Source of the DNA: Agrobacterium sp. RAC06
Lineage (GTDB): Bacteria > Pseudomonadota > Alphaproteobacteria > Rhizobiales > Rhizobiaceae
Direction of reading: 5' to 3'
Length of the DNA: 64,000 bases
NCBI RefSeq assembly: GCF_001713475.1
Contig: NZ_CP016500.1
Span: 259,508 to 323,507 of the forward strand
Shown here in pieces: positions 14,547-35,789 of this stretch (position 1 is the first letter of the stretch; the number at the start of each line of letters is the position of its first letter). The notes beneath the pieces were generated by a model that worked only from the letters and a program-made list of their open reading frames with translations, searched no databases and was not told where the DNA came from. The translations under genes and the position numbers were made by a program.

Positions 14547-14555
14547 GGATCAGTC

Positions 14556-16255: not shown

Positions 16256-17328
16256 CCCCGCTCGATATCGAACTCCAGTCGGTGACCAAGTCCTATGGCG
16301 CAGTGCCTGTTGTGCGTGATCTCAGCCTGTCCGTCCCGTGCGGCGAGTTTGTCAGCATTCTTGGGCCTTCCGGCTGCGGCAAGACAACGACACTAAACAT
16401 GATTGCCGGTTTTGCCGCACCGTCTTCCGGTGACATCAGGATCCGCGGCAAGAGCCAGGTGCGGGTCTCGCCTGAACACCGCAATATTGGCCTCGTCTTT
16501 CAGAACTATGCGCTCTTCCCGCATATGACGGTCTCGGAGAATGTTGGCTTCGGGCTCAAGATGCGCAAGGTGCCCAAAGAGGAGATCGCGGGCCGCATCG
16601 CTGAGGCATTGGAAAGCGTTCATCTGTCCGGATTTGCCGAGCGCTATCCGCGCGAGCTCTCCGGTGGCCAACAGCAGCGGGTGGCACTGGCCCGAGCAAT
16701 CGCACCACGTCCCTCCGTCCTCCTCCTCGATGAGCCACTTTCCAATCTGGACTTGAAGCTTCGCGAGGCCATGCGCATCGAGCTGAAGGAAATCCAGGCA
16801 GAGCTTGGCATGACCTTTGTCTATGTCACCCATGACCAGGAAGAGGCCATGGCAATGTCAGACCGGATCATCGTCATGTGGGGTGGCGAGATTGCCCAGG
16901 AAGGACGACCAGGCGAGATCTATCGCAATCCGAAGTCCCGCTTTGTTGCGGACTTTATCGGGCGCTCGAACCTTATTCCCTATTCCTCCTGGAAGACGAC
17001 CGGGCGAGGCACGGAGGTGATGCTGGCCGATAGCGGCATCTCGCTGGTCTCTGCGGGCAAGAAGGTGACACCGGAAACAGGCTTTGTCTGCATTCGTCCC
17101 GAACATCTGCATCTTTCGACTGCGGCAGGGGATGGACCGAACCGGCTTACTGGTCGCCTGAGGCGGGTCGTCGATCTCGGGGCTCAACTGGAGCTTTCTG
17201 TCGAGCTCGCTGCCGATCTTCTGATCACCCTTGTCTGCAGCGCCTCTCAAGGTCTCGCCCTGCCGGCACCGGGCGGTGAGCTTTGGCTGTCGGTGGCGCC
17301 GGAGGATGTCCGGCTGCTTTCTTCCTGA
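16252..17328 (+). CDS. ABC transporter ATP-binding protein (PotA-like)
   Basis: ATPase that powers the importer, 358 residues. Walker A is [14 protein letters not shown], the signature is [14 protein letters not shown], Walker B is [12 protein letters not shown], and the switch His lies in [19 protein letters not shown]-like C-terminal domain (from about residue 270, including CIRPEHLHL) is typical of the PotA/MalK class. The stop codon is followed by about 140 bases before the dioxygenase gene. Confidence 0.95.
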
Positions 17329-17468
17329 AGGCTTGAGCGATTGGCCGCGCCTATCAATCGCGGCCGATCGCTATTGGAGCGCCGGGCAAGGACCGGCCTA
17401 GGGTTTGACAACGGCTGGGTGCCGTATCGGTTGAGGACTTCCTCGCCGCATCTCAAGGAGACAGGACT

Positions 17469-18335
17469 ATGATGCTCAAGGAAAAGATCCACGCGACGCA
17501 GAACTCCACAAATGTCTGCGCTGAAGTCGAGGGATTTGACTTTCACGACTATGACGACCGCGATATCGCGGAGCTACGCCGGCTGTGGCTCGAATATGGC
17601 GTGCTACGCTTCAAGCGCACTCAAATCAGCGACGCTGACCAAGTGCGCTTCTCGCGGTATTTCGGGGACTTCGTCATTCACCCCAAGCAATTGCAGGAAG
17701 GCGGGCACCCCACCCATCCGGAAATCCTCGTCATTTCCAACCAGATGAAGGACGGCAAGCCGAGCGGTGCACTCGGCAATAGCGAAGCGACCTGGCATAC
17801 CGATACCTGGTTCTACGAGCGTCCGCCGGCTGGCGCCATCTTGCGGGCAATCCAGGTCCCGCCCTCTGGTGGTGACACCTATTTCCTCTCCACCTATCTC
17901 GCTTATGAAAGCTTGCCTGAGGCGCTGAAAAAGGCCGTGACCGGCCGACAGATCTTCTTCCAGAATGTCTATGACAAGACCGGCAAGCTCCGGCTCAACA
18001 AGCAGGAGCCGAAGTCAAAGGACTTCCGCGAATGGGACGGGGTCGTTCATCCGCTTGTCCGCACCCATGGCGAAACGGGTCGCAAGGCACTTTATCTCGG
18101 TGGCACGTTCGAGGGTGCCTGGATCGTCGGCATGCCGCAGGATGAGAGCTTCGGCCTCTTGCAAGAGCTTTGGGCGCACACGACAGGGCAGAGCGACATC
18201 TTCGTCCAGTCCTGGGAGGAAGGCGATATCATGATGTGGGACAATCGCTGCACCATGCATCGTCGTGACGGCTTCGATCCCAACACCATCCGCATCATGC
18301 ATCGCACGACCACGTCGGGCGAACGTCCGGTCTGA
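17469..18335 (+). CDS. TauD/TfdA-family Fe(II)/2-oxoglutarate dioxygenase
   Basis: Non-haem iron dioxygenase of 288 residues. The iron-binding H-x-D is in TWHTDTWFYE and the distal His in MWDNRCTMHRRDGFD; the Arg that holds 2-oxoglutarate follows in IRIMHRTTT. Family members hydroxylate substrates such as taurine, phenoxyacetates or quaternary amines, often releasing an amine or sulfite. AAGGAG precedes the ATG. Its place after a polyamine-type importer suggests that it carries out the first attack on the imported compound. The substrate is not evident from the sequence. Confidence 0.92.
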   Translation: MMLKEKIHATQNSTNVCAEVEGFDFHDYDDRDIAELRRLWLEYGVLRFKRTQISDADQVRFSRYFGDFVIHPKQLQEGGHPTHPEILVISNQMKDGKPSGALGNSEATWHTDTWFYERPPAGAILRAIQVPPSGGDTYFLSTYLAYESLPEALKKAVTGRQIFFQNVYDKTGKLRLNKQEPKSKDFREWDGVVHPLVRTHGETGRKALYLGGTFEGAWIVGMPQDESFGLLQELWAHTTGQSDIFVQSWEEGDIMMWDNRCTMHRRDGFDPNTIRIMHRTTTSGERPV

Positions 18336-18365
18336 GGCGGGGGAATGCGAGAGCAGGAGAAGACG

Positions 18366-19019
18366 ATGCGAACAGACTATCAGGTCGAGCCCAACCAGCC
18401 TCCTTTGTCGAAGGCGCTCGTTGACCTGCTCTCGCAGACCGAAACCGCCACGATCGGCCATGTCGAACATTTAGGATTTGTCGGAGACGGCATCTTGCCG
18501 ATCACGCCTGCACGAGTTTCGGGCCAGGCCTTGACGGTGGCAGCACCCGGTCGCGACGGCGTTGTGATCTACAGGGCCATCGATCTCATTCAGCCCGGCG
18601 ACATCATGGTCATCTCGCGGGTCGACCGGGATGACATCGCCTGTGTCGGTGGCGGTGTTGCGCTTGCCGCTCAGGCGCGGGGAGCTGCAGCCATTATCAT
18701 CGACGGGCCGGCAACCGATCTTGAGGAGATCGTTGCGGTCGGCCTGCCCGTCTGGTGCCGCGGTCGTTCATCACGGACCACCAACCGCAAGATCGCCGTC
18801 GGCGGCTCGATCAATCTGCCGATTGCCTGTGGCGCTACCGCCGTCCTGCCAGGCTATGCCGTGCTCGCCGATCACGAAGGTGTCTTTGTGGCTGAGCGGC
18901 AGCGTATGGAGGCACTCGCCCGTTTTGCCATCGAGCGACAGAAACGTTCGGCACGTCTTCGCGCCCATCTGGCCGAGGGCCTATCCATCTTTGATTTCGA
19001 AAGCGATCAACAATCATGA
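18366..19019 (+). CDS. RraA-like / HMG-aldolase-fold protein
   Basis: About 217-residue protein of the RraA/dimethylmenaquinone methyltransferase-like fold, which includes 4-hydroxy-4-methyl-2-oxoglutarate aldolases and oxaloacetate decarboxylases. The core can be followed from IYRAIDLIQPGDIMVISRVD to GGGVALAAQARGAAAIIIDG and INLPIACGATAVLPG. Catalytic members carry an Arg-Asp pair after the I-D-G segment (D-G-x-x-R-D); here the sequence is DGPATD, so the Arg is replaced by Thr while the metal-binding Asp remains. The ATG at 18366 has AGGAGAAG upstream. It probably acts in the same pathway as its neighbours, perhaps with altered chemistry. Confidence 0.85.
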   Translation: MRTDYQVEPNQPPLSKALVDLLSQTETATIGHVEHLGFVGDGILPITPARVSGQALTVAAPGRDGVVIYRAIDLIQPGDIMVISRVDRDDIACVGGGVALAAQARGAAAIIIDGPATDLEEIVAVGLPVWCRGRSSRTTNRKIAVGGSINLPIACGATAVLPGYAVLADHEGVFVAERQRMEALARFAIERQKRSARLRAHLAEGLSIFDFESDQQS

Positions 19020-19891
19020 AGATCTCACTCATTCAGATGAATTCGCAGCCGGATCGCACAGCCAACCTCGCCCAGGCTCTGCGTTTGATGCGCGACGCCT
19101 GTGCTGTGGCAAAACCGGATCTCCTTGTCCTGCCGGAGCATTTCGACTGGACGGGTGGGACGCCAGAGGACAAGCGCCAGGCGGCCGATCTTGTGCCCGG
19201 TGGTGAAGCCTATGAAATGGTGCGTGCCTTTGCTCGCGAGACAGGTGTCGCCGTTCATGCCGGTAGCCTGCTTGAGCGACGCCCTGATGATCCGACGATC
19301 TTCAACACCACCATCGTCTTCGATGCCAAGGGGCGTGAAGTCGGCTGCTACAGGAAAATCCACCTCTTCGATATCACCGCACCTGACGGCAAGCGCTATG
19401 CTGAATCGGCAGTTGTGGCACCGGGTGATGGGCTGCTTGTCTATGACGTCGGCGGGTTCAGGATCGGCTGTGCCATCTGCTATGATCTGCGTTTCTCGCG
19501 CCTCTTCGATCGGCTGGCGAGCCTCGAGGTTGATCTGGTGATCCTGCCAGCCGCTTTCACTGAGCAGACAGGCCGGGACCATTGGGAGATACTATGCCGG
19601 GCTCGCGCAATCGAGTTCCAGTGCTTCTTTGCTGCCTGTGGGCAATGCGGCAGCTACAGGGCTCCAGATGGTGGTGACCGCGCGATGTTCGGGCATTCCA
19701 TGATGGTTGATCCCTGGGGGCGGATCATTGCAAGGGCGGGTCAGGACATCGGCGTCGTCGACGTCGAGATTGACCGAGCAACCGTTGACAAGGTGCGCCG
19801 GATGATCCCGATGACTGAACATCGACGTGATCTGAGCCATATGCCGGTCGCGTGTGTCTCGGTTGATCGCGGGCGGCAGGCCATGGGTTGA
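19016..19891 (+). CDS. Carbon-nitrogen hydrolase (nitrilase superfamily)
   Basis: 291-residue amidase/nitrilase-fold enzyme. The catalytic triad is visible: Glu in LLVLPEHFDW, Lys in CYRKIHLFD and Cys in GCAICYDLRF, with a supporting Glu in HWEILCRARAIE. Members hydrolyse omega-amides, carbamoylated amines or similar C-N bonds. It overlaps the RraA-like gene by four bases and ends the operon. Within this set it could release ammonia from an amide intermediate. The most similar known groups by eye are omega-amidase/NIT2-like proteins, but the substrate is open. Confidence 0.9.
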   Translation: MKISLIQMNSQPDRTANLAQALRLMRDACAVAKPDLLVLPEHFDWTGGTPEDKRQAADLVPGGEAYEMVRAFARETGVAVHAGSLLERRPDDPTIFNTTIVFDAKGREVGCYRKIHLFDITAPDGKRYAESAVVAPGDGLLVYDVGGFRIGCAICYDLRFSRLFDRLASLEVDLVILPAAFTEQTGRDHWEILCRARAIEFQCFFAACGQCGSYRAPDGGDRAMFGHSMMVDPWGRIIARAGQDIGVVDVEIDRATVDKVRRMIPMTEHRRDLSHMPVACVSVDRGRQAMG

Positions 19892-21179: not shown

Positions 21180-21515
21180 ATGCCGCGCAACAGAAGCTAT
21201 TCCAGGGTTACGCGAGACGCCCTCCTCGTCCTAGGTAAACTGATCCGTGTCTCTAGAACCGAACGCGGCCTCACGGCTCAGGAACTCGCTGACCGCGCGG
21301 GCATCAGTCGGACAACCCTTTTCAACATCGAGAAGGGTTCACCTGGACTTGAAATCGGCATTGTCTTCGAAGTCGCGTCGATCGTCGGAATTCGTCTGTT
21401 CGACCATGATGAGCGTAACACGCTCAAGGCGCGCATGACCTATCTCGATGAAAAACTGACCTTGCTTCCCAAGAGTGTTCGTCACAGCGTGAAGGATGTT
21501 GACGATGACTTCTAA
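21180..21515 (+). CDS. hipB: HipB-like XRE antitoxin
   Basis: About 111-residue helix-turn-helix protein. The DNA-binding core is LGKLIRVSRTERGLTAQELA followed by RAGISRTTLFNIEKGSPGLE. In HipBA modules such a protein binds the HipA kinase and represses its own operon. I prefer the ATG at 21180 (MPRNRSYS) because the longer frame from 21099 adds a low-complexity acidic head. Its end overlaps the start of the hipA gene, which supports the pairing. Confidence 0.85.
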   Translation: MPRNRSYSRVTRDALLVLGKLIRVSRTERGLTAQELADRAGISRTTLFNIEKGSPGLEIGIVFEVASIVGIRLFDHDERNTLKARMTYLDEKLTLLPKSVRHSVKDVDDDF

Positions 21516-22827
21516 GGCAGAGGCAAAAGAGGCATTTGTCTGGATATGGCTGCCGGGAGCCACTGAGCCAGTCGTGGCCGGCCGCCTCGATCAGGATGGC
21601 GACCAGTTGCTCTTCATCTATGGTGCAAGTTACAGGCGTCGTAACAATGCGATCTCCATCTACCATCCGGAGCTCCCCCTGCAGGAGGGCGTTATCGAGC
21701 CTGCCAATGGGCTGAACATGCCAAGCGCAATCCGTGATGGATCGCCTGACGCCTGGGGGCGCCGCGTGATCATGAACAGGCTGACCGCACAAGCGCCCGT
21801 CGGAGCGAGTGTGTCGGATCTCAGCGAACTGACATTTTTGCTGCAGTCCGGATCGGACCGGATCGGCGCGCTCGATTTCCAGCAGTCCGCAAGCGAGTAC
21901 GTTCCTCGCCTCGCCGCGCAGGCATCGCTTGACGAGTTGATGGAAGCTGCGACGCGCATTGAGAGAGGAATGCAGCTTACGCCTGCGCTGGCTCAGGCTC
22001 TCAACCATGGCACATCGATTGGCGGCGCGCGGCCCAAGGCGCTCATCGACGACAATGAAAAGAAATTCATCGCAAAATTCTCCGCCAGCAACGACACCTA
22101 TAGCGTCGTAAAGGCGGAGTTCATCGGAATGCGGCTGGCATCAGCCTGCGGCCTTAATACCGCACCTGTGTCGATAACCCAAGCCGCCCACAAGGACGTG
22201 CTGTTGATTGAACGCTTCGATCGGCGACGCTCGGCAACGGGCTGGACACGACGTTCCATGGTGTCGGCACTGACGATGCTCGGGCTCGATGAGATGATGG
22301 CGCGCTATGCCTCTTATGAAGATCTGGCAGAACTCATTCGACACCGCTTCAGCGATCCGAAGGAAACGCTTAAAGAACTCTATGGCCGCATCTGCTTCAA
22401 TGTGCTTTGCGGCAATACTGACGACCACGCCCGCAATCATGCCGCCTTCTGGGACGGCAGACAGCTGACGCTGACGCCTGCATACGACATATGCCCGCAA
22501 GGTCGCACCGGCAGCGAGGCCACTCAGGCCATGCTGATCAAGGGCAACCTTCGTGCAAGCACGCTTTCCGCATGCCTCGCAGCGGCGCCCGATTACCATT
22601 TGACACATGCACAAGCGTCTAAGCTTATCGAACATCAGCTCACAACCATCGCGCAAAACTGGCGCTCGATTTGCGATGAAGCCGAACTGACCGAGGTGGA
22701 CCGCAAGCTGTTTTCCAGACGCCAGTTCCTCAACAGCTACGCTCTTGAAGGACTTGATGGGCATGGCTCCTTGCGGGATTCCTATGAAAGTGCACAGGAC
22801 ACGCTGCTTGCCCGCGGAGAGACCTGA
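21505..22827 (+). CDS. hipA: HipA-like serine/threonine kinase toxin
   Basis: 440-residue HipA-family protein. A HipA N1-type domain (from AFVWIWLPGA to IRDGSPDAWGRRV) is followed by the couple/kinase region. The loop SIGGARPKA, the catalytic DDHARNHAAF (with Asp and the downstream Asn) and the metal-binding YDICP are all present. In E. coli HipA phosphorylates glutamyl-tRNA synthetase and blocks translation; the target here is unknown. GAAGG lies 9 bases before the ATG at 21505. The pair may act in plasmid maintenance or stress tolerance. Confidence 0.9.
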   Translation: MTSKAEAKEAFVWIWLPGATEPVVAGRLDQDGDQLLFIYGASYRRRNNAISIYHPELPLQEGVIEPANGLNMPSAIRDGSPDAWGRRVIMNRLTAQAPVGASVSDLSELTFLLQSGSDRIGALDFQQSASEYVPRLAAQASLDELMEAATRIERGMQLTPALAQALNHGTSIGGARPKALIDDNEKKFIAKFSASNDTYSVVKAEFIGMRLASACGLNTAPVSITQAAHKDVLLIERFDRRRSATGWTRRSMVSALTMLGLDEMMARYASYEDLAELIRHRFSDPKETLKELYGRICFNVLCGNTDDHARNHAAFWDGRQLTLTPAYDICPQGRTGSEATQAMLIKGNLRASTLSACLAAAPDYHLTHAQASKLIEHQLTTIAQNWRSICDEAELTEVDRKLFSRRQFLNSYALEGLDGHGSLRDSYESAQDTLLARGET

Positions 22828-23364: not shown

Positions 23365-24273
23365 TCAAGAAACTTCGAACTGGCTGGCGAGGCAGTTTGT
23401 CAATTGTGACGCAAAGCGTGCAGCAGCCACTGGCAAGGTGCGGCCCTTCAACTGACCGAGATAGAGGATGCCGGCGGGCACATCGCGTCCATCAAGCGGC
23501 AGTGAGACCATCCGGCCCGTTGAGGTTTGGTCCGAGAGACCGATCGGTATCTGGAAGGTGAGGATGTTCTCCATCACCGCGTGGTTTCGCAGGAATTCAA
23601 AATTGTCGGACTGGATAACCGGATCGAGGCGCACACCGGCAATGCGCATGGCAATGTCGAGCAGATGGCGCACACCATAGGCCGTCGTCGGCAGCGCGAT
23701 CGGGTAATCGACACAATCAGATAGCCTGACCGTCGACCTCGCCGCCAGCGGATGATCGGGGGACATCACGACATGCACCGGTTGGCGCACGCGGATGAGC
23801 GTCATGAAATCCGTGAGGCGCACAGGTTCGAAAACGATAGCAAGATCGGCGCTGTGATCGACGAGCGCGTGCTCGGCCGCCTCGCGATCCCGCAAGTGGA
23901 CACTGAAGGTGACGTTCGGGTGTTCCTTGCGATAGAGCGCGATCTGGCTCGGCAAGAAATAAGGCAAGAGCGCCTGGCTACAGGCAATCGACACATGGCC
24001 GCGCCGCACGCCAGAGAGATCGGCGATCTGCGAACGCACCCGCTCCATGTCCGAGAGTTGGTTGCGAATGTGGTGAATATAGATCTCGCCGGCGGCCGAT
24101 AGGCGCACACCATGGGCCAAGCGTTCGAAGATCGGCACGCCGAGCTCCTCCTCCATGGCGAGAATGCGCCTATTGAGCGCCGTCGAAGTGATCGCGAGCG
24201 TATCGGCGGCGGCCCGGATCGAGCCCGCCTTCACCACGGCATCGATGTATCGAATGGAAGCGAGGTAGCGCAT
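23365..24273 (-). CDS. LysR-family regulator divergent from the biuret operon
   Basis: LysR-type regulator of about 302 residues. The helix-turn-helix is MRYLASIRYIDAVVKAGSIR followed by STALNRRILAMEEELGVPIF, with an effector domain from HVSIACSQALLPYF onward. I chose the ATG at 24273; an upstream ATG at 24330 has no ribosome site and adds an unrelated head. It faces away from the BMP-type importer operon, and the gap contains a perfect inverted repeat of T-N11-A type, so it likely controls that operon in response to biuret or a related ureide. Confidence 0.92.
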   Translation of the reverse strand: MRYLASIRYIDAVVKAGSIRAAADTLAITSTALNRRILAMEEELGVPIFERLAHGVRLSAAGEIYIHHIRNQLSDMERVRSQIADLSGVRRGHVSIACSQALLPYFLPSQIALYRKEHPNVTFSVHLRDREAAEHALVDHSADLAIVFEPVRLTDFMTLIRVRQPVHVVMSPDHPLAARSTVRLSDCVDYPIALPTTAYGVRHLLDIAMRIAGVRLDPVIQSDNFEFLRNHAVMENILTFQIPIGLSDQTSTGRMVSLPLDGRDVPAGILYLGQLKGRTLPVAAARFASQLTNCLASQFEVS

Positions 24274-24290
24274 GAAGGGCCCTGTATAGG

Positions 24291-24311
24291 CTGCTGCATT
24301 TTTTGCAGCAG
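24291..24311. promoter_or_regulatory. Candidate LysR operator in the divergent promoter region
   Basis: CTGCTGCA, five T and TGCAGCAG form a perfect 8-base inverted repeat. Its centre fits the T-N11-A consensus of LysR regulators (T at 24295, A at 24307). It lies between the LysR gene and the binding-protein gene. Confidence 0.6.
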
Positions 24312-24434
24312 GCCGGCCAAAACATAGCACAAGACAGAAGCGCGTCCATCTGGATTACTGCCGTCGAAAGCCAGACGCGGAGCCCTCGAGACCGGGCCAC
24401 GCCGGCAAAACAAGCAAAAACGGGGAACGTCCAC

Positions 24435-25559
24435 ATGTCGAAGATCCTGATGCCCAATCGTCGCCAGTTTCTGATGAACTCAGCCGGTCTCGCCGGCGCA
24501 GCTGCCCTTTCGGGTCTGCTGCCGGCTGGAATGGCACATGCGGCGGGCCTCACGGTCGGCTTCATCTATGTCGGACCGAAGGATGATTTCGGCTACAACC
24601 AGTCGCATGCTGAGGGCGCCGCTGCGGTCAAGGCTATGGAGGGCGTCACGGTAGTCGAAGAGGAGCAGGTTCCCGAAACGGTCGACGTGCAAAAGACCAT
24701 GGAGAGCATGATCAGCTTTGATGGTGCAACACTCCTTTTCCCGACCTCCTTCGGCTATTTCGATCCCCACATCCTGGCTCTGGCACCGAAGAATCCGGAG
24801 GTGCGCTTCCAGCATTGCGGCGGCCTCTGGACGCCGGACAATCCGGCAAATGTCGGCTCTTATTTCGGCTATATCGGCATGGGCCAGTATCTGAACGGCA
24901 TTGCGGCCGGCTATGCCACGAAGTCGAAAAAGATAGGTTTCGTGGCAGCGAAGCCCATTCCGCAGGTGCTGTTGAACATCAATTCCTTCCTGCTCGGCGC
25001 GCGTGCCGTAGATCCCTCGATCACCTGCCAGGTCATTTTCACCGGCGAATGGTCGCTGGCGGTCAAGGAGGCGGAGGCCACCAATGCGCTGGCCGATCAG
25101 GGCATCGACGTCATCACCTGCCATGTGGACGGCCCGAAAGTGGCGATGGAGACCGCGGCTGGTCGCGGGATGTATCTGTGTGGCTATCATGCCAACCAGA
25201 GCGCGCTCGCGCCGGACAAGTATCTGACCGGAGCGGAGTGGAACTGGGCCAAGGTCTACACCGACATGGTCAAGACCACGCTTGCGGGCGGCACGATCGA
25301 CAACTTTGTCCGCGGAGGACTGGCAGACGGCTTCATCAAGATGAGCCCGCTCGGACCGGCCGTCAGTGAGGAGGCGCGCACCCGCTTCGAGGCAGTCCAG
25401 GGTGAGATCATGAAGGGCGGCTTCGCGGCGATCACCGGGCCCCTCAAGGACAACAAGGGCAATGTGGTGGCAACCGCCGGGCAGGCTCTGGTTGAGACCG
25501 ATGTTGCGCTTGAGAGCATGAACTACCTCGTGGAAGGCGTCGTCGGCTCCACCTCATGA
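24435..25559 (+). CDS. BMP-family ABC transporter substrate-binding protein
   Basis: Periplasmic binding protein of the BMP/PnrA type (BmpA, Med; known members bind nucleosides). The ATG at 24435 gives a Tat-like signal peptide (NRRQFLMNSAGLAGAAALSG, cut near AHAAG). The mature start LTVGFIYVGPKDDFGYNQSH matches the family opening with its Asp and Asn ligand residues. It heads an operon with two permeases, a double ATPase, ureide hydrolases and allophanate hydrolase. The ligand is therefore more likely biuret, triuret or a similar ureide than a nucleoside; this is inference from context. Confidence 0.92.
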   Translation: MSKILMPNRRQFLMNSAGLAGAAALSGLLPAGMAHAAGLTVGFIYVGPKDDFGYNQSHAEGAAAVKAMEGVTVVEEEQVPETVDVQKTMESMISFDGATLLFPTSFGYFDPHILALAPKNPEVRFQHCGGLWTPDNPANVGSYFGYIGMGQYLNGIAAGYATKSKKIGFVAAKPIPQVLLNINSFLLGARAVDPSITCQVIFTGEWSLAVKEAEATNALADQGIDVITCHVDGPKVAMETAAGRGMYLCGYHANQSALAPDKYLTGAEWNWAKVYTDMVKTTLAGGTIDNFVRGGLADGFIKMSPLGPAVSEEARTRFEAVQGEIMKGGFAAITGPLKDNKGNVVATAGQALVETDVALESMNYLVEGVVGSTS

Positions 25560-25587
25560 CAGAACAGCGCGAACAGGAGGCCAGTTC

Positions 25588-26697
25588 ATGAGCCTGCAGG
25601 TCGATCAGATGGCGCCACTTGACCGACGGACCGGCTTCCTGAACGAGGCCGGTGCCCGCCGTATCGAAGCGGTCCTTCTGCCCATGGCAGCCCTGCTTGC
25701 GGGAATGCTGGCCTTCGCAATCTTCCTTCTTCTGCTAGGCAAGTCACCGGTCGAATTCTATGGGCTTGTCTTGAAGGCGGGCTTCGGCACCGCCTTCTCC
25801 TGGACGAACACCCTGACGCGCGCAGCACCGCTGCTTCTGGCAGCGCTCTGCGTTGCACTGCCGGCCCGCCTCGGGCTCGTCATCATCGGTGGCGAGGGCG
25901 CGATCGTGCTTGGGGGCGTCGCGGCAGGCGCCGTCGCCATGCTGATGCCGGGCCTTCCGGCTGTTATCGGCATCACCCTCATGGCGGTTGCCGGCATGGC
26001 GGTCGGCGGCTTCTGGATTGGCACGGTCGGTGCACTTCGCCACCTGCGCGGTGTGAATGAGACGATCTCAAGCCTGCTGATGGCCTATATCGCAATTGCC
26101 CTGATGAACCACCTGATCGAGGGCCCCTTTCGTGATCCAGCAAGCCTCAACAAGCCTTCCACTGCACCGCTGCCCGAAACCTGGCAGATCGGCGAGATGC
26201 CAGGCATCGGCGTCCACTGGGGGCTTGCCCTTGGCATTCTCGCCTGTATCCTCGCCTGGATACTGATTGAGCGGACCACCATCGGATTTGCGGCACGCAT
26301 CGTTGGAGGCAACGTCCGTGCGGCAGAAATCCAGGGGCTTCCGGCGGGCACTCTCGCCATCGGCTTCACGGCGCTTGGCGGCGCCTTCGCAGGGCTGGCC
26401 GGCATGATCGAGGTCGCAGCGATCCACGGCTCGGCCAATGCCTCGCTTGCGGCGGGCTACGGCTATACGGGCATCCTCATTGCCTTTCTCGCCCGCCACA
26501 ACGGGCTCGCCATCATCCCGGCCGCCATTCTGTTTGCCGGCATCGAGGCGTCGAGTGGTCTCATACAGAGACGGATGGATTTGCCGGATGCGACTGTACT
26601 GGTCCTTGAGGGCATGGTCTTCATCGCCATCCTCTTGACTGACACGCTGCAGGGTCGCGTCCGCTTCCTCACTTTCCTCGAAAGGAGGCAGACATGA
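25588..26697 (+). CDS. BMP-type ABC transporter permease, first subunit
   Basis: Permease of the branched-chain/nucleoside class (BPD_transp_2), 369 residues with about eight or nine hydrophobic segments. Conserved pieces are ARLGLVIIGGEGAIVLGGVA in the middle and GFAARIVGGNVRAAEIQGLP, the usual cytoplasmic loop. AGGAGG precedes the ATG. It overlaps the second permease by four bases. It pairs with that protein to form the pore for the BMP-type binding protein. Confidence 0.92.
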   Translation: MSLQVDQMAPLDRRTGFLNEAGARRIEAVLLPMAALLAGMLAFAIFLLLLGKSPVEFYGLVLKAGFGTAFSWTNTLTRAAPLLLAALCVALPARLGLVIIGGEGAIVLGGVAAGAVAMLMPGLPAVIGITLMAVAGMAVGGFWIGTVGALRHLRGVNETISSLLMAYIAIALMNHLIEGPFRDPASLNKPSTAPLPETWQIGEMPGIGVHWGLALGILACILAWILIERTTIGFAARIVGGNVRAAEIQGLPAGTLAIGFTALGGAFAGLAGMIEVAAIHGSANASLAAGYGYTGILIAFLARHNGLAIIPAAILFAGIEASSGLIQRRMDLPDATVLVLEGMVFIAILLTDTLQGRVRFLTFLERRQT

Positions 26698-27617
26698 CTG
26701 ACGATATCGGCCTGTGGGGCGTGCCTCTTGCAATCCTTGGCGGCGCGATCCGTGTCTCCACGCCGTTCATATTCGTCTCCATCGGCGAGTGCCTGACGGA
26801 ACGATCGGGGCGTATCAATCTTGGACTCGAGGGCACTCTGGTCTTCGGCGCCATGAGTGGATATGCGGTCGCCTATCACACGGGATCGCCCTGGCTCGGC
26901 ACCTTGGCCGCCGCCTTCTCCGGCCTGCTCTTCGGCCTTCTGCATGGCTGGCTTTGCCGCCTGCCGCGCGTCAACGACATCGCCATCGGCATCGCGCTGA
27001 TGATCTTCGGCACGGGCCTCGCCTTCTTGTTCGGCAAGCCCTACGTGCAGCCCGTCGCACCGGACCTGCCGGCCATCCCGCTCGGCTTCTGGTCAAGCCT
27101 GCCGCAGGTGCAAGCGGCACTGAATGTCAATGTGCTGTTCCTCGCGGGCATCGTGCTCGCATTCGCCACGGCCTGGATGCTGAAGAATACCCGCGTTGGG
27201 CTGACGATCCGCGTGACCGGCGACAGCGCAGATGCAGCGCGCGCACTTGGCATCGACGTCAACCGGGTGCGGCTCTGGAGTACAGCGGCCGGCGGTGCGC
27301 TTGCCGGTGTGGGTGGCGCCTATCTCTCGCTCTATTATCCCGGCAGCTGGAACGAAGGCATCTCCTCCGGCCAGGGGCTGATGGCGGTGGCACTGGTGAT
27401 CTTTGCCCGCTGGAATCCGGTCAACTGCCTCTATGCCTCACTGCTGTTTGGCGGCGCCGGCGCGCTCGGTCCGGCGTTGCAATCCGTCGGCATCACCAGC
27501 GGCTACTATCTCTTTTATGCGGCCCCTTACGTGCTCACCCTGGGGCTTCTGGTTGCGACCAGCTCGCGCGGCCGCGCCATGCCATCAGCACCCGGCGAGC
27601 TCAGCATCGTCAAGTAA
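26694..27617 (+). CDS. BMP-type ABC transporter permease, second subunit
   Basis: Second pore subunit, 307 residues. It opens with the typical ATPFIFASLGE-like stretch, here [20 protein letters not shown] followed by INLGLEGTL. The cytoplasmic loop [20 protein letters not shown] contacts the ATPase. It is translationally coupled to the first permease and followed 44 bases later by the biuret hydrolase gene. Confidence 0.92.
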
Positions 27618-27661
27618 ACAGTGCCGCAGCTGCGGCAAGCGACAAGCGAATGGAGACCGAG

Positions 27662-28339
27662 ATGACCACCATTCAGGCCGATCCTTATCTCTGGCCCTAC
27701 AATGGAGATCTGAGACCGGACAACACGGCTCTGATCATCATCGACATGCAGACGGATTTCTGCGGACCAGGCGGCTATGTCGACAAAATGGGCTATGATA
27801 TTGGGCTCACCCGCGCACCGATCGAGCCGATCAAGGCCGTGCTTCAGGCTATGCGTGACAAGGGCTACCACGTCATACACACCCGCGAGGGTCACCGGCC
27901 GGACCTTTCCGACCTGCCGCCGAACAAGCGCTGGCGTTCACAACAAATCGGCGCTGGCATTGGCGATGCGGGTCCCTGCGGACGCATTCTTGTACGCGGC
28001 GAGCCGGGCTGGGAGATCATCGACGAACTGAAACCCCTGGATGGTGAGCCTATCATCGACAAACCGGGCAAAGGCTCATTCTGCGCCACCGACCTCGAAC
28101 TTCTCCTGCGTACCCGAGGTATAGAGAACATCGTGCTTTCGGGCATCACCACCGATGTCTGCGTGCACACCACCATGCGCGAGGCGAATGATCGCGGTTT
28201 CGAGTGCCTGCTTCTCGAAGACTGTTGTGCGGCGACAGATCCCGGCAACCATGCGGCTGCGATCAAGATGGTGAAGATGCAGGGCGGCGTCTTCGGCGCA
28301 GTTTCCGACAGTGGTAAGTTTGTCGAGGCCCTGCCATGA
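27662..28339 (+). CDS. biuH: Biuret amidohydrolase (isochorismatase-fold cysteine hydrolase)
   Basis: 225-residue cysteine hydrolase that closely resembles, from memory, the Rhizobium leguminosarum biuret hydrolase BiuH, which converts biuret to allophanate and ammonia. The catalytic triad is Asp28 (IIIDMQTDF), Lys134 ([10 protein letters not shown]) and Cys167 ([11 protein letters not shown]); these sit exactly eight residues before the reported D36, K142 and C175. Shared stretches include [19 protein letters not shown] and [25 protein letters not shown] precedes the ATG at 27662; a much longer open frame upstream is an overlap with the permease gene. It lies between the importer's permease and ATPase genes. 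Confidence 0.9.
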
Positions 28340-29874
28340 GCACCAACGCTCAGCAGCCCAAGGCACTGACACGCGCGATCGCGGTGGAAACGGTCGGCAT
28401 GACGATGCGGTTTGGAACGTTCACCGCGCTGAACGACGTCTCGCTGAAGGTCAAAGCGGGCTCCTTCCATGTCCTGCTCGGCGAAAACGGTGCGGGCAAA
28501 TCGACCCTCGTCAAATGCATGATGGGCTTTTATCGTCCGACGTCCGGCCAGATGATGGTCGCTGACCACGAGGTGCAGGTCCGAGACCCGCGCGACGCCC
28601 ACGATCTGGGCCTCGGCATGGTCTACCAGCATTTCACGCTTGTGCCCTCACTGACGGCGGCAGAGAACCTGGTGATCAGCCGGGCGGATGTGCCGGCCCA
28701 CATCGACTGGGGCAAGGAGCGCACTGACCTTTCAGCATTCATGGAAAGAATGCCCTTCACCGTGCCGCTGGACGTGCCCGTCGGACGGCTTGCGGCGGGC
28801 GAGAAGCAGAAGCTGGAACTCTTGAAGCAGCTTTATCTCGGACGCCGATTTCTCATTCTGGACGAGCCGACCTCGGTGTTGACGCCCTCGGAGGCCGACG
28901 AGTTGCTCGGCATGGTGCGCGGCCTGACCACGGCTGGCGAACTCACCTGCCTGATGATTTCACACAAGTTCCGCGAGGTGACGGCCTTTGCTGACGCAGT
29001 TTCGGTATTGCGCCGCGGCGAGTATGTCGGGGGTGGCAAGGTGGCTGACCTGACGACCGCAGAGATGGCGGCGATGATGATAGGCGAGAAGGAATTGATG
29101 CGGCCTGCGGCCCGCACCCCAATGAACGGCGCACCGGTGCTGACCGTCTCCAGCGTCAAGGCGCCGGATCGGTCGGGGCTCAAGACCATCGCCATCGATG
29201 ACCTTGCGGTGCGGGCCGGAGAAATCGTTGGCATTGCCGGCATTTCCGGAAACGGGCAGATGGAACTGATGGAGATCCTGTCGGGGCAGCGGCCGCTGTC
29301 TGCGGGAAGTGTGGAGGTCTGTGGCACGCCGTTTCGCGCCACCCGTGGCGAGATGCGGGCGTTGAATGTGCGCACGCTGCCGGAAGAGCCCTTGCGCAAT
29401 GCCTGCGCTCCAAAGATGAGCGTAGCCGAAAACATCTTCTTTCGCGATTTCGATTTCGTGGCAGAAAAGCGCAAATTCTGGCTGGATCGGCGCCGTATGG
29501 CCGCGCTGGCAGCCCGGCTGATTGGCGATTACAAGGTCAAGACTGCGTCGCTGGACACGCCAATCGCATCCCTTTCCGGCGGCAATGTTCAGCGTGCCGT
29601 GCTGGCCCGCGAGCTGAGTGGAACCGTTGACCTGCTGTTGATCGCCAATCCCTGCTTCGGTCTCGATTTCTCGGCCGTGGCGGAAATCCGCGCGCGCATC
29701 ATGGCGGCGCGCAACGGAGGTGCTGCCGTCTTGCTGATCAGCGAGGATCTTGATGAGATCCTCGAACTCTCCGACCGCATCCTTGTCATGTCGGAAGGCG
29801 CAATCGTCTTTGAGACGCAAGCTGACGGAGCCGATATCGGGGAGATTGGAAGACATATGGCAGGACATCACTGA
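28336..29874 (+). CDS. BMP-type ABC transporter, double ATP-binding protein
   Basis: 512-residue ATPase with two ABC domains, as in RbsA/YufO-type importers. The first has Walker [15 protein letters not shown], the signature-like [18 protein letters not shown] and Walker [12 protein letters not shown]. The second has [14 protein letters not shown] in place of a full Walker A (no GKT/S), the signature [16 protein letters not shown], and Walker [13 protein letters not shown], where the catalytic Glu is replaced. A degenerate second site is usual in this class. It overlaps biuH by four bases and touches the next hydrolase gene. Confidence 0.93.
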
Positions 29875-30539
29875 TGGCAGTTATCAAGGCACGCCCCTTC
29901 GACATAACGATCACCCCGGAACAGACCGCACTCGTCGTCATCGACATGCAGCGCGACTTCATCGAACCGGGCGGCTTCGGCGCCACGCTCGGCAATGACG
30001 TCACGCTTCTGCAGGCGATCATCCCTGCCACAGCGCGGCTGATTGAGGGTTTTCGCCGTGCCGGCCTGCCGGTGATCCACACGCGCGAATGCCATGCATC
30101 AGACCTTTCGGACTGCCCGCCTGCCAAGCGGGCGCGTGGAAAACCATCACTGCGCATCGGTGATCCCGGTCCGATGGGACGCATCCTGATTGCAGGCGAA
30201 GACGGCGCCGATATCGTCGCTGCCCTTGCCCCTCTGCCTGGCGAACCGGTCATCGACAAACCCGGCAAGGGCGCGTTCTACGCGACCCATCTTGGCGAAA
30301 TTCTGCAGGAGAAGGGCATTTCCCAGCTCGTCTTTGCCGGCGTGACCACGGAGGTCTGCGTACAGACCACCATGCGCGAGGCGAACGACCGCGGCTATGA
30401 GTGCCTTCTCGCGACCGACGCCACCGAAAGCTATTTCCCCGAATTCAAGAAGGCCGCCATCGACATGATGACCGCACAAGGCGCGATCGTCGGCTGGGCG
30501 GCGACAGTGGACCAGATTGTCGAGGCCCTCGATGCGTGA
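29874..30539 (+). CDS. Second isochorismatase-fold cysteine hydrolase (candidate triuret hydrolase, TrtA-like)
   Basis: 221-residue paralogue of BiuH. The triad is conserved: Asp24 (VVIDMQRDF), Lys129 ([10 protein letters not shown]) and Cys162 ([11 protein letters not shown]). The N-terminus lacks the biuret hydrolase stretch PYNGDLRP, and the substrate-side residues differ (for example FIEPGGFG for FCGPGGYV). Known relatives include triuret hydrolase TrtA, which forms carboxybiuret that falls apart to biuret, and other ureide hydrolases. Lying in the same operon as BiuH and allophanate hydrolase, triuret is an attractive substrate, but this is inference; another N-carbamoyl compound is possible. 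The start codon overlaps the ATPase stop. Confidence 0.85.
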
Positions 30540-30864
30540 GACCCTGCACATGGAACAGTTCCTGGCGAGCCGCTGGAAGGAAGCCCCCTTCGAACATTTT
30601 CGCGATGGTGTGGAGATTTGCCGTCTCATCCAGGGCGAACCGGAACTGGCGCTCTTGCGCTATGCACCGGGCGCCAGCGTGCCGCAGCACCGGCATACGG
30701 GGCTGGAGACCATTCTGGTATTGGAGGGCTCGCAAAGCGACGAGAACGGCCACTATGGGCCAGGCTCGCTTGTCGCCAACCCGGAAGGCACGGTGCATTC
30801 CGTCTCCTCGGCAGAAGGCTGTGTCGTCCTCATCCAGTGGACGAAGCCGGTTGAAATCCTGTGA
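30532..30864 (+). CDS. Cupin-domain protein
   Basis: About 110-residue single-cupin protein of the ChrR/anti-sigma-cupin-like type. Metal-ligand motifs are [16 protein letters not shown] (two His and a Glu) and, further on, [11 protein letters not shown] with the third His. The ATG at 30532 overlaps the stop of the hydrolase gene; a second ATG at 30550 is possible. It is conserved in order between the hydrolases and allophanate hydrolase. It may sense or bind a pathway compound or act as a small isomerase; no activity can be assigned. Confidence 0.85.
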
Positions 30865-30881
30865 CATCTGAAAGTGCCGTC

Positions 30882-32684
30882 ATGAACATAATGACAATGC
30901 CCTTCACCCTGAAGCATCTGCATAGCGCCTATGCCGCCGGCCTCAGCCCAGTGACTGTGATCGAGGAGGTCTATCGGCGCGTCGAAGAGGCTGACGATCC
31001 TGGTATCTTCATCCATCTGGCACCGAAGGAAGTAATGCTTGCAGCCGCCGCAGCCCTTGGCCCCTACGATCCAGCGCGGCCGCTTTACGGTATACCCTTC
31101 GCGGTTAAGGACAATATCGATGTCGCGGGCATGCCGACCACCTGCGCCTGCCCGGCCTTCGAATATGCCGCAACGGCTGATGCTTTCGTGGTGGCGAAAC
31201 TGAAAGCCGCCGGTGCGCTTCCGATTGGCAAGACCAATCTCGACCAGTTCGCCACCGGCCTTGTTGGCGTGCGCTCCCCCTATCCGATCCCAAAGAACGC
31301 CATTGATCCCTCCATCGTGCCGGGCGGTTCCAGCAGCGGCTCGGCCGTGGCTGTGGCGCGTGGCATTGTGCCCTTTGCTCTTGGAACGGATACAGCCGGC
31401 TCCGGCCGCGTGCCAGCCGCGCTCAACAATATTGTCGGGCTGAAGCCGACGCTCGGCACACTGTCTGCCACCGGCATGGTGCCGGCCTGCCGCACGCTCG
31501 ACACCATCTCGATCTTCACCTTGACTGTCCCGGATGCTTTCGCGGTCTATATGGCAACCGCCGGCTATGACGAGGCCGACGCCTATTCCCGCGATCTTGC
31601 AGCCCCCTTCCTGGAAGTCCCGGGGGCGGGCTTCAGCATCGGCGTTCCCGATATAGCCTCGCGCCGCTTCTTTGGCGATGTCGTCCAGCAAGGATCCTTC
31701 GAGGCGGTGATTGCTGTTTTGGAGGGTATGGGACACCGCATCGTGCCTCTCGATTTCACTCCGCTCTATCGCATCGCCGAATTGCTCTACGAGGGTGCAT
31801 GGGTGGCGGAGCGTTATGCGGCCATAGAACAAGTGATCCGCACCATGCCCGATGCGCTTTTTCCGGTGACCCGCGGGATCATCGGACGGGCTGAAACCTT
31901 AACCGCGTCAGATGCCTTCCGTGACATCTACCGACTTGCCGATCTCAAGCGCAAGGCAGCCCCATTGATCGCCGCGGCGGACCTCCTTTGTGTCCCCACC
32001 ATTCCGTGCTTCTTCAGCGTCACGGATCTGACACAGGATCCTGTCAGGCCGAATTCGAAGCTCGGCACATACACAAACTTTGTCAACCTGCTGGATCTAT
32101 GTGGGATCGCCGTGCCGGTCGCGACGCGCACCGACGGAAGACCTGGAAGCGTGACCCTGCTAGGTGCTGCCGGGCTGGATGGCCGCATCGCTGGCATAGC
32201 GGCCAGCCTGCAGGTTGAAGCCTCCCCTCCACTTGGTGCCACAGGCTGGGAGCTAGAGCCGATCGATGCCCTTCCCCCGGCCGCCGGCCCAGCCGAGATC
32301 GCAATCGCACTGGTCGGCGCCCATATGCGCGGCCTGCCGCTCAACGGCGAGATCACCCGTCTTGGTGGCCGCTTTCTTGCGCAGCGCCAAACCGCACCCG
32401 AATACCGCTTGCACGCACTTGCTGGCGGACCGCCTCAGCGGCCGGGGCTCGTCCGGGTGAACGAGGGTGGACAGGCGATTGCGCTTGAGGTCTGGGCGCT
32501 CCCCCTCGACCAGTTCGGTTCCTTCATGACAGGTGTTCCTTCGCCGCTCTCGATCGGGACCGTAAGGCTTGATGACGGATCTGCCGTCAAGGGCTTCCTC
32601 TGTGAACCGGCCGGCCTCCGGGGGGCCGAGGACATTACACCACTCGGCGGCTGGCGCGCCTTCCTGGCCGCAGCGTCCAGATAG
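30882..32684 (+). CDS. atzF: Allophanate hydrolase
   Basis: About 600-residue amidase-signature enzyme that splits allophanate into two ammonia and two CO2. The amidase Lys is in GIPFAVKDNID (Lys76) and the Ser-cis-Ser region in VPGGSSSGSAVAVARG. The stretch GLKPTLGTLSATGMVPACRT is characteristic of allophanate hydrolases rather than general amidases. A C-terminal domain of about 150 residues (from AEIAIALVGAHMRGLPLNGE on) is the usual small domain of this family. I chose the ATG at 30882 with GAAAG upstream; a GTG at 30861 overlaps the cupin stop. It completes the biuret route. Confidence 0.93.
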   Translation: MNIMTMPFTLKHLHSAYAAGLSPVTVIEEVYRRVEEADDPGIFIHLAPKEVMLAAAAALGPYDPARPLYGIPFAVKDNIDVAGMPTTCACPAFEYAATADAFVVAKLKAAGALPIGKTNLDQFATGLVGVRSPYPIPKNAIDPSIVPGGSSSGSAVAVARGIVPFALGTDTAGSGRVPAALNNIVGLKPTLGTLSATGMVPACRTLDTISIFTLTVPDAFAVYMATAGYDEADAYSRDLAAPFLEVPGAGFSIGVPDIASRRFFGDVVQQGSFEAVIAVLEGMGHRIVPLDFTPLYRIAELLYEGAWVAERYAAIEQVIRTMPDALFPVTRGIIGRAETLTASDAFRDIYRLADLKRKAAPLIAAADLLCVPTIPCFFSVTDLTQDPVRPNSKLGTYTNFVNLLDLCGIAVPVATRTDGRPGSVTLLGAAGLDGRIAGIAASLQVEASPPLGATGWELEPIDALPPAAGPAEIAIALVGAHMRGLPLNGEITRLGGRFLAQRQTAPEYRLHALAGGPPQRPGLVRVNEGGQAIALEVWALPLDQFGSFMTGVPSPLSIGTVRLDDGSAVKGFLCEPAGLRGAEDITPLGGWRAFLAAASR

Positions 32685-33288: not shown

Positions 33289-34386
33289 ATGGAAGGTAAT
33301 CAGACCGATACAAAACTGGCTTCGGTGTTGCGGTTCACACCGCATCGGGCCGAGCCGATTGTGCTGGACGAAAAGGAGATCGCCGCCAGTGGCTCTGCGC
33401 TATCGGTGAGGGAAGTGCATGACGTGCTGGAGCAGGCCTGGCACGATATCCGCAACGGTCGGGCACTGGGGCATAAGTCCGTGCTGTCGCTTCCCGAGGA
33501 GGCGTTCTGGCGCGAGGCAGGTTATCAAAGCCGACCAAAAGAGTTTGCCGGTGAGAGGCTCGGCTGGAAGCTCTCCTGCCTCTATGGTGCAAATCCCGAA
33601 TTTGCCGGGGTCAAGGTCATCGGTGCCAATGCCTTCAACCGGCATTTCGGCCTTCGACGCTCCAGATCGACCTATATTCTCATGGAGAAATTCTCCATGC
33701 AGCCGCTCGCAATCATCGATGCGACCGCGCTTTCGGCAGCACGTACCGGTGCTTATGCCGCTCAGGTGCTTCGTCTTTGTCCGATCGAAAAAGATCAGAT
33801 TACGGTGTTTCTGTTCGGTGCGGGGCCAGTTGCAAAGGCAATCCTCGCTTCGCTGGCGGATTGCACAGCCCGTCAAATTGGCCGCGTCTATCTCAAGGCA
33901 AGGAGGCTTGAAAGCGCAAAGGCGCTGCAAGCCTCGCTCTCCATGACACTGCCCTTCGATGTCGTCGCTGTCGAAGACAACGGTTTTCTGGCGGAAGCTG
34001 ATTTCGTCATCACAGCCACAAATTCCGACCGTCCGGTTTTCGGTGATCACGAGCTCAGGCACGACGCCTGTCTTCTGCATCTGGGGGGCGACGAAGTGCC
34101 AGCCGAGACCTTGCGCCGGATCCTTAGGCAGGGTCAGGTTGGCTGCGATGATCTGGCAACCGTCTCCAGGCGAAACTCGCAGAGCCTTGCCTTGCAGTTC
34201 TCAAGGGTGGGCGGCTCGCTTGAAGCACTCGGGCCCCATCTTGGCATTCTGGAGCTATCGAAGACCAAAGACTGGCGTGTTCAGCCAGGTGCGCCGCTCT
34301 CTGTCACCTGTGTCGGTCTGCCAGTGCTTGATCTCTATGTGGTGGCGGCACTCTTCCAAAAGTATCGGGCAAATCGCGAGATTTAA
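33289..34386 (+). CDS. Ornithine cyclodeaminase/mu-crystallin family protein
   Basis: 365-residue NAD-dependent enzyme of the OCD_Mu_crystallin family, which includes ornithine cyclodeaminase, alanine dehydrogenase and ketimine reductases. The Rossmann loop is VFLFGAGPVAKAI, and the substrate region GWKLSCLYGANPEFAGVKVI holds the Lys expected to bind the carboxylate. VITATNSDRPVFGDHEL is the usual post-Rossmann strand. GGGAGGATC lies upstream of the ATG. It is followed 47 bases later by an MmgE/PrpD gene, and the two probably act together on an amino-acid-like compound. Confidence 0.88.
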   Translation: MEGNQTDTKLASVLRFTPHRAEPIVLDEKEIAASGSALSVREVHDVLEQAWHDIRNGRALGHKSVLSLPEEAFWREAGYQSRPKEFAGERLGWKLSCLYGANPEFAGVKVIGANAFNRHFGLRRSRSTYILMEKFSMQPLAIIDATALSAARTGAYAAQVLRLCPIEKDQITVFLFGAGPVAKAILASLADCTARQIGRVYLKARRLESAKALQASLSMTLPFDVVAVEDNGFLAEADFVITATNSDRPVFGDHELRHDACLLHLGGDEVPAETLRRILRQGQVGCDDLATVSRRNSQSLALQFSRVGGSLEALGPHLGILELSKTKDWRVQPGAPLSVTCVGLPVLDLYVVAALFQKYRANREI

Positions 34387-34433
34387 GAACTGGGTATTTG
34401 CGCATTCCGCGCTGACCTGAGAGGGAGGACGTC

Positions 34434-35789
34434 ATGCCACCCATGACAGAACGCCTTGCACGACATGCGCTTCAAACCGATGTCGAGGCAGGCGGCCCCG
34501 AGCTGAAAGAGATTGCGCTTTGCTGCGTGCTTGATCTTCTGACGGCCGCAATTGCTGGAGCGGGGACCGCAGCACCGCATGCAGCACTCGGTATCACTGA
34601 CATGCATGGCAAGGGAGATGCGCCTGTCTGGTTTGAGGATCGCCGATCCTCCCTGTCGCTTGCCTTGCTGCATAACGGTCTTTGCGCCTCCTGCCTCGAC
34701 TTGGACGACGGCAATCGGGCAGCCCGCGGCCATCCCGGTGCCAGCGTCATTCCAACCGTGTTGACACTCGGTGCAAGTCTGCCAGAGGTCACGGGATCGG
34801 CGATCTTGTCGGCGATCATCGCCGGCTATGATGTCGGTGTCCGGATTGCGGCCTCGCAAAGGCTGGACGCCATTGCGACGCGTCAGACCGGGCGATGGGC
34901 GGCCTTTGCATCCTGTGCGGCTGCCGGGCGTCTTCTTGGTGTCTCGCAAAAGGTGCTGTCTGAGGGGCTCGCGATTGCCGGCGTTCTGGCACCGAACCAG
35001 CGGGCCAATGGCAGTTCCGGTTATTCCAGGGCGACCGGCAATCTGGTCAAGGAGGGGATTGCGTTCAGCGCAAGGACCGGGCTTGAGGCGCTTTTCCTGG
35101 CGCAGCGCGGCTTTACTGGTCCAATCGATCTCCTTGATCATGACGGGTTTTATGACCAAGTCCGCCTTACAGCTGAACTCGGTGATCGGTTCGAGATCCT
35201 TGACACCTATTTCAAGCCCTATGCCTGTTGTCGCTATATTCATCCAGCCCTTGATGCGCTGAGCCAACTGATGCACGGCCATGACTTGGTCGCCGATGAC
35301 ATCGCCCGGATTGACGTGCATACTTTCTCGCAGGCGCTGCGGCTGGCCAACAGTTGTGCCCCGCAAACACTTGTCGGTCTGCAATACAGCCTTCCTTTCT
35401 GCCTGGGGGTTCTGGCAATCGAAGGCGACGAGGCGCTCCTGCCCGTCTCGGAGAGGCTTCTTTTTCGCAAGGATCTTGTGCTTTTTGCAGAGAGGGTCAC
35501 CCTTTCCGTCGACGAGGCGGCGGAGGCACGGTTCCCGCGCGAGACCTTGGCCAGACTTCAGCTCACCCTGAAATCAGGCAGGATTGTTTCCAGCGCATTG
35601 GTGACGCCTCGCGGCGATCCCAGCCAGCCCATGGAGCGCGCGGATCTGGCCTTGAAGCTCCAGCGTGTGATGAGCAATCGCGGCATCACAGATGTTTATG
35701 AGCATGTTGTTGGTGCAGTCGGCTGTCTTGGTGGGGGCGATCCGGGGCCCTTGCTAGGCGTGCTGGAAACAGGGTTCCAGCGGTCGTGA
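34434..35789 (+). CDS. MmgE/PrpD family protein
   Basis: 451-residue protein of the MmgE/PrpD family, whose characterised members include 2-methylcitrate dehydratase and cis-aconitate decarboxylase. Family features seen are DLDDGNRAARGHPGASVIPT (the conserved D-D and the H-P-G turn), AGYDVGVRI, and FKPYACCRYIHPALDA in the C-terminal half. GAGGGAGG precedes the ATG. Context with an ornithine cyclodeaminase-like enzyme suggests a catabolic dehydratase or isomerase. The true substrate is open, since this family is broadly diverged. Confidence 0.88.
   Translation: MPPMTERLARHALQTDVEAGGPELKEIALCCVLDLLTAAIAGAGTAAPHAALGITDMHGKGDAPVWFEDRRSSLSLALLHNGLCASCLDLDDGNRAARGHPGASVIPTVLTLGASLPEVTGSAILSAIIAGYDVGVRIAASQRLDAIATRQTGRWAAFASCAAAGRLLGVSQKVLSEGLAIAGVLAPNQRANGSSGYSRATGNLVKEGIAFSARTGLEALFLAQRGFTGPIDLLDHDGFYDQVRLTAELGDRFEILDTYFKPYACCRYIHPALDALSQLMHGHDLVADDIARIDVHTFSQALRLANSCAPQTLVGLQYSLPFCLGVLAIEGDEALLPVSERLLFRKDLVLFAERVTLSVDEAAEARFPRETLARLQLTLKSGRIVSSALVTPRGDPSQPMERADLALKLQRVMSNRGITDVYEHVVGAVGCLGGGDPGPLLGVLETGFQRS

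Follow-up and report, generated by a model that had tools for sequence, protein, structure and literature searches.

The window analysed here, a stretch of 64,000 nucleotides (nt) from Agrobacterium sp. RAC06 (NZ_CP016500.1, positions 259,508 to 323,507), probably carries an operon for ureide scavenging, made up of eight plus-strand genes in one tight run between positions 24435 and 32684. The genes encode, in order, a BMP-type binding protein, permease 1, permease 2, the biuret hydrolase BiuH, an ABC ATPase, a TrtA-like hydrolase, a cupin and the allophanate hydrolase AtzF. In the proposed route, the exported BMP-family protein, the two permeases and the double ATPase would, with fair likelihood, import biuret and probably triuret. 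TrtA would then take one ammonia off triuret, an activity extrapolated from that of the characterised TrtA, and the resulting carboxybiuret would lose CO2 to give biuret, by catalysis of the cupin or otherwise spontaneously. BiuH would convert biuret to allophanate and ammonia, and AtzF would break allophanate down to ammonia and CO2, with all four triuret nitrogens ending as ammonia. Triuret and biuret are fertilizer impurities, with triuret estimated at ~300 million pounds a year (PMC7948467; papers are cited by PMC number).

Layout and recurrence of the operon

An earlier note, made from the DNA letters alone, had proposed a triuret and biuret operon with its own BMP-type importer, and the operon proved real, with every gene open and in its place. 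The genes for permease 1 (25588..26697) and permease 2 (26694..27617), both of Pfam family BPD_transp_2, overlap by 4 nt, as do biuH (27662..28339, with an alternative start at 27650) and the ATPase gene (28336..29874), whose product has two nucleotide-binding domains matching Pfam ABC_tran in two stretches. The ATPase gene shares 1 nt with trtA (29874..30539), and trtA shares 8 nt with the cupin gene (30532..30864). Between the cupin gene and atzF (30861..32684) there is a 4-nt overlap if atzF starts at its GTG, or a 17-nt gap if it starts at the ATG at 30882, as in Agrobacterium sp. MA01. The widest spacings are the 28 nt between the BMP gene (24435..25559) and permease 1 and the 44 nt that separate permease 2 from biuH, reduced to 32 nt if biuH starts at the upstream ATG (27650). 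The remaining Pfam families were Bmp, Isochorismatase for both hydrolases, Cupin_7, Amidase plus AH_C for AtzF, and LysR. The position of the ATPase gene between the two hydrolase genes and a divergent LysR gene adjoining the run are additions to the earlier description.

Recurrence was surveyed in a TrtA-selected set, the best 80 loci of a longer list from a genome-contig scan with TrtA, whose titles were mostly rhizobial or from other Alphaproteobacteria and in which loci cut by contig ends were scored as misses. TrtA was present in 80/80 of these loci, BiuH in 76, at least three of the four transporter parts in 74, the cupin in 66, AtzF in 50 and LysR in 16. The six loci with fewer transporter parts (L015, L018, L028, L069, L076 and L081) all come from short contigs or from close to where a contig ends. 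Because the parts recur together across the set, their assembly in the window is not a chance one; moreover, the gene overlaps and the recurring order argue for the unity of the operon, and a single transcript appears likely. The 4.96-Mb genome has two contigs, with the window on contig 2, and the same gene order is found on plasmid punanmed2 of Agrobacterium sp. MA01, the sole plasmid record at 99% identity.

Operons with trtA, biuH and atzF were published in 2020 (PMC7948467). Those of Herbaspirillum sp. BH-1 and Rhizobium leguminosarum 3841 resemble the window in combining TrtA, BiuH and AtzF in the same route to ammonia, but the main text of that paper names a decarboxylase, TrtB, and mentions neither a cupin nor a bacterial transporter. 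On pRL10 of Rhizobium johnstonii 3841 (NC_008381.1, 358000-374000), the source of the characterised BiuH, the genes for the BMP protein, two permeases, BiuH, ATPase, TrtA and cupin are ordered as in the window, with 58-82% identity. The complete order there is BMP-permease-permease-formamidase-BiuH-AtzD-ATPase-TrtA-cupin, so that this locus differs in its extra genes for formamidase and AtzD (cyanuric acid hydrolase), as well as in having GntR rather than LysR adjoining and no AtzF within the 16 kb. In ammonia-oxidising and comammox bacteria, trtA, biuH and atzF are associated with a BMP-type transporter, bmpA-nupABC, as in the window; trtB is present in the ammonia oxidisers and missing in comammox, and the main text of the report, unlike the window, is without a cupin (PMC12625717, 2025). 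In the open-access literature we found no paper that mentions a cupin alongside triuret or biuret hydrolase, nor any pairing the term "BMP family" with biuret; PMC12625717 does describe this association, under the name bmpA-nupABC. The enzyme set and the transporter association are of already known kinds; the comparative results are new.

Many relatives carry a formamidase gene between those for permease 2 and BiuH (e.g. L280 4065-5081 and L182 10041-11141; one cluster comprises 66 loci), which the window lacks. A Citrobacter freundii plasmid (NZ_CP056841.1, L094 802-10425) has the order atzF-BMP-permease-permease-formamidase-BiuH-ATPase-TrtA-GntR, without a cupin.

The hydrolases

The first hydrolase is almost certainly a BiuH, expected to yield allophanate and ammonia from biuret. 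It scored 421 bits against the NF050097 equivalog (cut-off 370), found its best PDB match in 6azo (E 2.6e-126), is 82% identical to the BiuH of R. johnstonii 3841 and carries the triad D28/K134/C167 together with the BiuH-type residue set DYYEKKSDCTQV. The AtzF prediction, by which allophanate would go to ammonia and CO2, is likewise made with very high confidence, with 761 bits against the TIGR02713 equivalog (cut-off 511) and an amidase domain accompanied by a C-terminal AH_C domain.

The second hydrolase, also with the triad that the earlier note had read (D24/K129/C162, alongside that of BiuH, both verified), had been suggested there as possibly TrtA-like, and the best structure match, the published discriminating residues and the conserved context all agree with that. 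Its PDB scores were 284 bits for TrtA of Herbaspirillum (6xix), 213 for a generalist biuret hydrolase (6xjm), 194 for BiuH (6azo) and 97 for RutB, and its 257 bits against NF050097 stay below the cut-off of 370. At the six positions that discriminate TrtA from BiuH it has F35, N41, A134, E160, Y187 and I205, all TrtA-type, where the window's BiuH has Y, Y, S, D, T and V; the glutamine Q202 is common to both. The published TrtA numbering coincides with that of the window protein (residue set DFNEKKAECYQI), and F35, N41, A134, E160, Y187 and others were mutated towards the BiuH consensus in PMC7948467, where I205 and Q202 are discussed. Of the 80 TrtA-selected loci, 78 had every TrtA residue at the 12 positions compared, and the other two differed only at A134 (Ser). 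A duplicate of the biuret hydrolase, a generalist, or an enzyme for another ureide (RutB-like) is very improbable in its place: the window's two hydrolases are 49% identical and a natural generalist BiuH exists (PMC7948467), but the six TrtA-type positions and the drop from 284 bits for TrtA to those for BiuH and RutB led us to reject a RutB-like enzyme or a BiuH copy. Nearest to TrtA among the characterised isochorismatase-fold enzymes compared, the second hydrolase is by its sequence, with high confidence, a predicted triuret hydrolase, and the enzyme part of the proposed sequence triuret, biuret, allophanate, ammonia is supported.

E. coli plasmid p135-3 (NZ_CP080263.1, L095 8995-16202) likewise encodes a hydrolase that is 55.7% identical and has every residue of the TrtA set, next to oxalurate-type genes (DUF2877, fdrA, DUF1116, carbamate kinase) and the gene for a cytosine permease; matches to TrtA at E 1e-60 or better were present in 77 Escherichia plasmid records. 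Two further loci (L150 8912, L151 9652) encode, near distant BMP-type permeases, BiuH-like hydrolases (58-59%) whose residues are changed to DYYQKSADCTEY and DYYQKAADCTEY and which perhaps have another ureide specificity.

The cupin and the carboxybiuret step

The earlier note had given the cupin no role; the locus survey suggests one. This single-domain protein has 110 residues, and its predicted model is a confident cupin barrel (predicted local distance difference test score 92.9). H53, H55, E59 and H89, which we take to be the usual cupin metal ligands, were invariant in 112/112 linked cupins (a count that takes in the window and near-duplicates), and so were Q68, D70, N83 and C97. Across 40 aligned cupins from a database, H55, E59 and H89 were present in all and H53 in at least 90% (P0161 differs).

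The distribution of the cupin was followed in a BiuH-selected set of 123 BiuH-orthologue loci, drawn from three partly overlapping samples taken at class (289 genomes), phylum (398) and order (397) level. Matches scoring ~365 bits or higher were included, with no genome entered twice and with loci cut by contig ends retained; weaker paralogues, a fragment at a contig end (G905) and the window's own locus were left out. AtzE and AtzH were each scored from one seed, and some may be missed; neighbour-gene clustering suffered from shadow frames in the GC-rich DNA and was used solely to pick out formamidase, AtzH, AtzE, GntR and AtzD. The 95 loci with a TrtA signature comprised 34 with the cupin, 53 with AtzE or AtzH, 8 with neither and none with both, while the 28 TrtA-less loci had no cupin, AtzE or AtzH in 2 cases and neither in 26. 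In the TrtA-selected set, 66 loci had the cupin, 2 had AtzH near trtA, 12 had neither, and the cupin was never together with AtzE/AtzH. Just upstream of the cupin gene, the recognised operon gene was trtA in 110 of 111 cases (all loci, with the window's own and near-duplicates included). An AtzH-like gene occupies the cupin's slot in L143, L144, L167, L181, L218, L219, L225 and L246, where no AtzE was scored; that of L181 lies 3 nt after trtA, passes the HpxZ cut-off and has AtzH among its solved relatives. In Pseudomonas sp. ADP, carboxybiuret is handled before AtzF by AtzEG and AtzH, AtzE converting it to dicarboxyurea and AtzH being thought to yield allophanate (PMC6219798). These proteins are unrelated to the cupin and were not found in cupin loci, and the cupin gave no match to PF11533 (AtzH-like, DUF3225/NTF2-fold), its model matching cupins instead. 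The window's genome gave no AtzD and no AtzH match, AtzE not being part of this genome-wide search. Because the cupin stands where other operons carry handlers of carboxybiuret, or of what follows it, we tentatively predict it to be a metal-dependent carboxybiuret decarboxylase with a 3-His/1-Glu site.

Several observations weigh against this assignment. Among solved structures the cupin comes closest to cupin domains of ChrR and to a variety of metal cupins, and the nearest folds are mixed (ChrR, dioxygenases, lyases, KdgF) and name no reaction. The Fisher tests (p 5.3e-5 for cupin vs TrtA; p 4.6e-8 for cupin vs AtzE within 89 TrtA loci) ignore kinship. On the BiuH tree, with at least 14 state changes for the cupin and 19 for AtzE/AtzH, only 4-5 supported independent contrasts were available, all of them either tied or as expected, and the sign test was not significant. 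Since 8 of the 95 TrtA loci have neither cupin nor AtzE/AtzH, enzymatic help with carboxybiuret is not obligatory. AtzD, the other maker of carboxybiuret, occurred near 14/55 cupin-less TrtA loci vs 0/34 cupin loci of the BiuH-selected set, and near 18/66 cupin loci of the TrtA-selected set. Two loci with AtzD and BiuH and no TrtA in the stretch (L201, with a contig end beside biuH, and L247) had neither cupin nor AtzE/AtzH, and carboxybiuret may decay unaided there.

The cupin might instead be a ChrR-like sensor or regulatory protein, with carboxybiuret decaying on its own, a possibility to be taken seriously although we consider it somewhat doubtful. It is favoured by the ChrR cupin domains being the best family and fold matches, by a carboxybiuret half-life of ~20 min without a further enzyme (PMC7948467) and by the eight TrtA loci without any handler. 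However, with 110 residues in the window cupin and 109-125 in its relatives (120 matches listed) there is no room for the zinc anti-sigma domain, and the ChrR model score of 51.8 bits is far under the cut-off of 124.5, so that score and size rule out membership of the ChrR anti-sigma family. The cupin gene starts inside the end of trtA, and HxxxCxxC was absent from the aligned cupin stretch of the 112 linked cupins. The invariant metal site and the occurrence of the cupin only in TrtA loci, never with AtzE or AtzH, also speak for the predicted decarboxylase rather than for a sensor.

The cupin may already be known under the name TrtB, that of the published decarboxylase. This name was on none of the 120 relatives listed for the AtzH-like neighbour, source names being shortened there and many rows nameless. 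Should TrtB prove to be the AtzH-like gene, the cupin would be an unrelated substitute for it; should it prove to be the cupin, the prediction is already known. For loci without trtB, "an unidentified enzyme" or spontaneous decay has been proposed (PMC12625717), and a cupin decarboxylase, if true, would be an enzyme for this step. It would likewise be a second, unrelated solution to a step that cyanuric acid breakdown shares.

Transporter, regulator and neighbouring genes

The BMP protein begins with NRRQFLM, presumably a twin-arginine-like motif. It passed Pfam Bmp with 123 bits (cut-off 24.1). The transporter, counted as present when at least three of its four parts lay within 8 kb of BiuH, was beside BiuH in 115 of the 123 BiuH-selected loci, and in 28 of the 34 without TrtA at the level of the hidden Markov model (HMM); six of these 34 hold a more distant TrtA-signature gene further off. 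Among 17 further, weaker-match loci, 10 hold a TrtA-signature gene but no BiuH orthologue; the cupin was found in 0/10 of these and AtzE near 6/10, and their transporter-like matches were only distant (L156 and L160, 30-41% identity). Being near-constant beside BiuH, most TrtA-less loci included, and represented only by distant matches where TrtA lacks BiuH, the transporter goes with BiuH. Its retention in most loci where TrtA is missing therefore points to biuret or a broader range of ureides as cargo, and import of biuret, perhaps with other ureides, would be the simplest reading. The ureide importer of the earlier note is thus plausible and better supported than before.

The closest solved relative is AtzT (6pi5, E 2e-59), which has a Tat (twin-arginine translocation) signal and binds purines and 2-hydroxyatrazine (PMC6834077). 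When the AtzT pocket residues of that paper were mapped onto the BMP proteins, all nine AtzT letters fell at their published places, reading Y-S-F-T-E-N-W-N-N vs Y-S-F-Q-Q-N-W-H-D in the window (Y54, S105, F106, Q151, Q177, N181, W206, H230, D232). Only five of the nine residues of the guanine-binding set (Y45, S97, F98, E165, N169, W194, N218, N220 and second-shell T139) are thus identical: the stacking pair is retained, as Tyr or Trp with Trp, but the hydrogen-bonding residues are changed (E165Q, N218H, N220D), as is the second shell (T139Q). The window's nine letters recurred in 112/158 BMP proteins from loci with HMM-level TrtA and in 24/28 from loci without, most others having W-S-F-H-T/S-N-W-H-D. 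The final His-Asp pair is not unique to the operon group, being shared by 11/13 lower-scoring BMP proteins.

That the closest solved relatives bind purines counts against ureide import, and the transporter might carry not linear ureides but purines, nucleosides or cyanuric acid. This is unlikely in our view: AtzT binds guanine at 110 nM (PMC6834077), the Tyr/Trp stacking pair is kept in the window, and AtzD is encoded in the R. johnstonii 3841 operon and in the TrtA-selected cupin loci mentioned above, but four of the nine pocket positions differ, the operon contains no purine gene, the transporter follows BiuH, and the genome encodes three other BMP proteins over the cut-off. Cyanuric acid is disfavoured as the operon's own substrate by the lack of an AtzD match in the genome. 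Taken with a dedicated importer for biuret or other ureides, the cupin would represent one of several mutually exclusive ways in which triuret operons handle carboxybiuret (AtzE with AtzH, an AtzH-like protein alone, or an unrelated metal cupin as a decarboxylase of a fold new for the reaction), a combined proposal that we put forward with considerable reserve.

The divergent LysR-type gene (23365..24273, minus strand; LysR_substrate and HTH_1 in Pfam, scanned from an upstream GTG at 24330) was assigned its start by comparison with MA01, whose annotated gene has the same 909 bp. Its product would control the operon, with a perfect inverted repeat in the LysR/BMP intergenic region, CTGCTGCA-N5-TGCAGCAG at 24291..24311, as the candidate operator. 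Dyads were seen in 4 of the 19 intergenic regions compared, with the same arms and spacing in L006, L008 and the near-identical locus L096, and as the variant GTGCTGCA-N5-TGCAGCAC in L202. Promoter and terminator scans gave matches at chance level, and a loose sigma-54 pattern had no match within 24261-24440.

Upstream in the window, genes for a binding protein, two permeases, an ATPase, a TauD dioxygenase, an RraA-like protein and a carbon-nitrogen hydrolase form another, likely catabolic run (13473-19891), followed by a HipA-family gene (21496-22827); the MA01 plasmid has a helix-turn-helix gene annotated just before its copy of the latter. Downstream of atzF, an ornithine cyclodeaminase-family gene and an MmgE/PrpD gene (33289-35789) are found, as they are in MA01.

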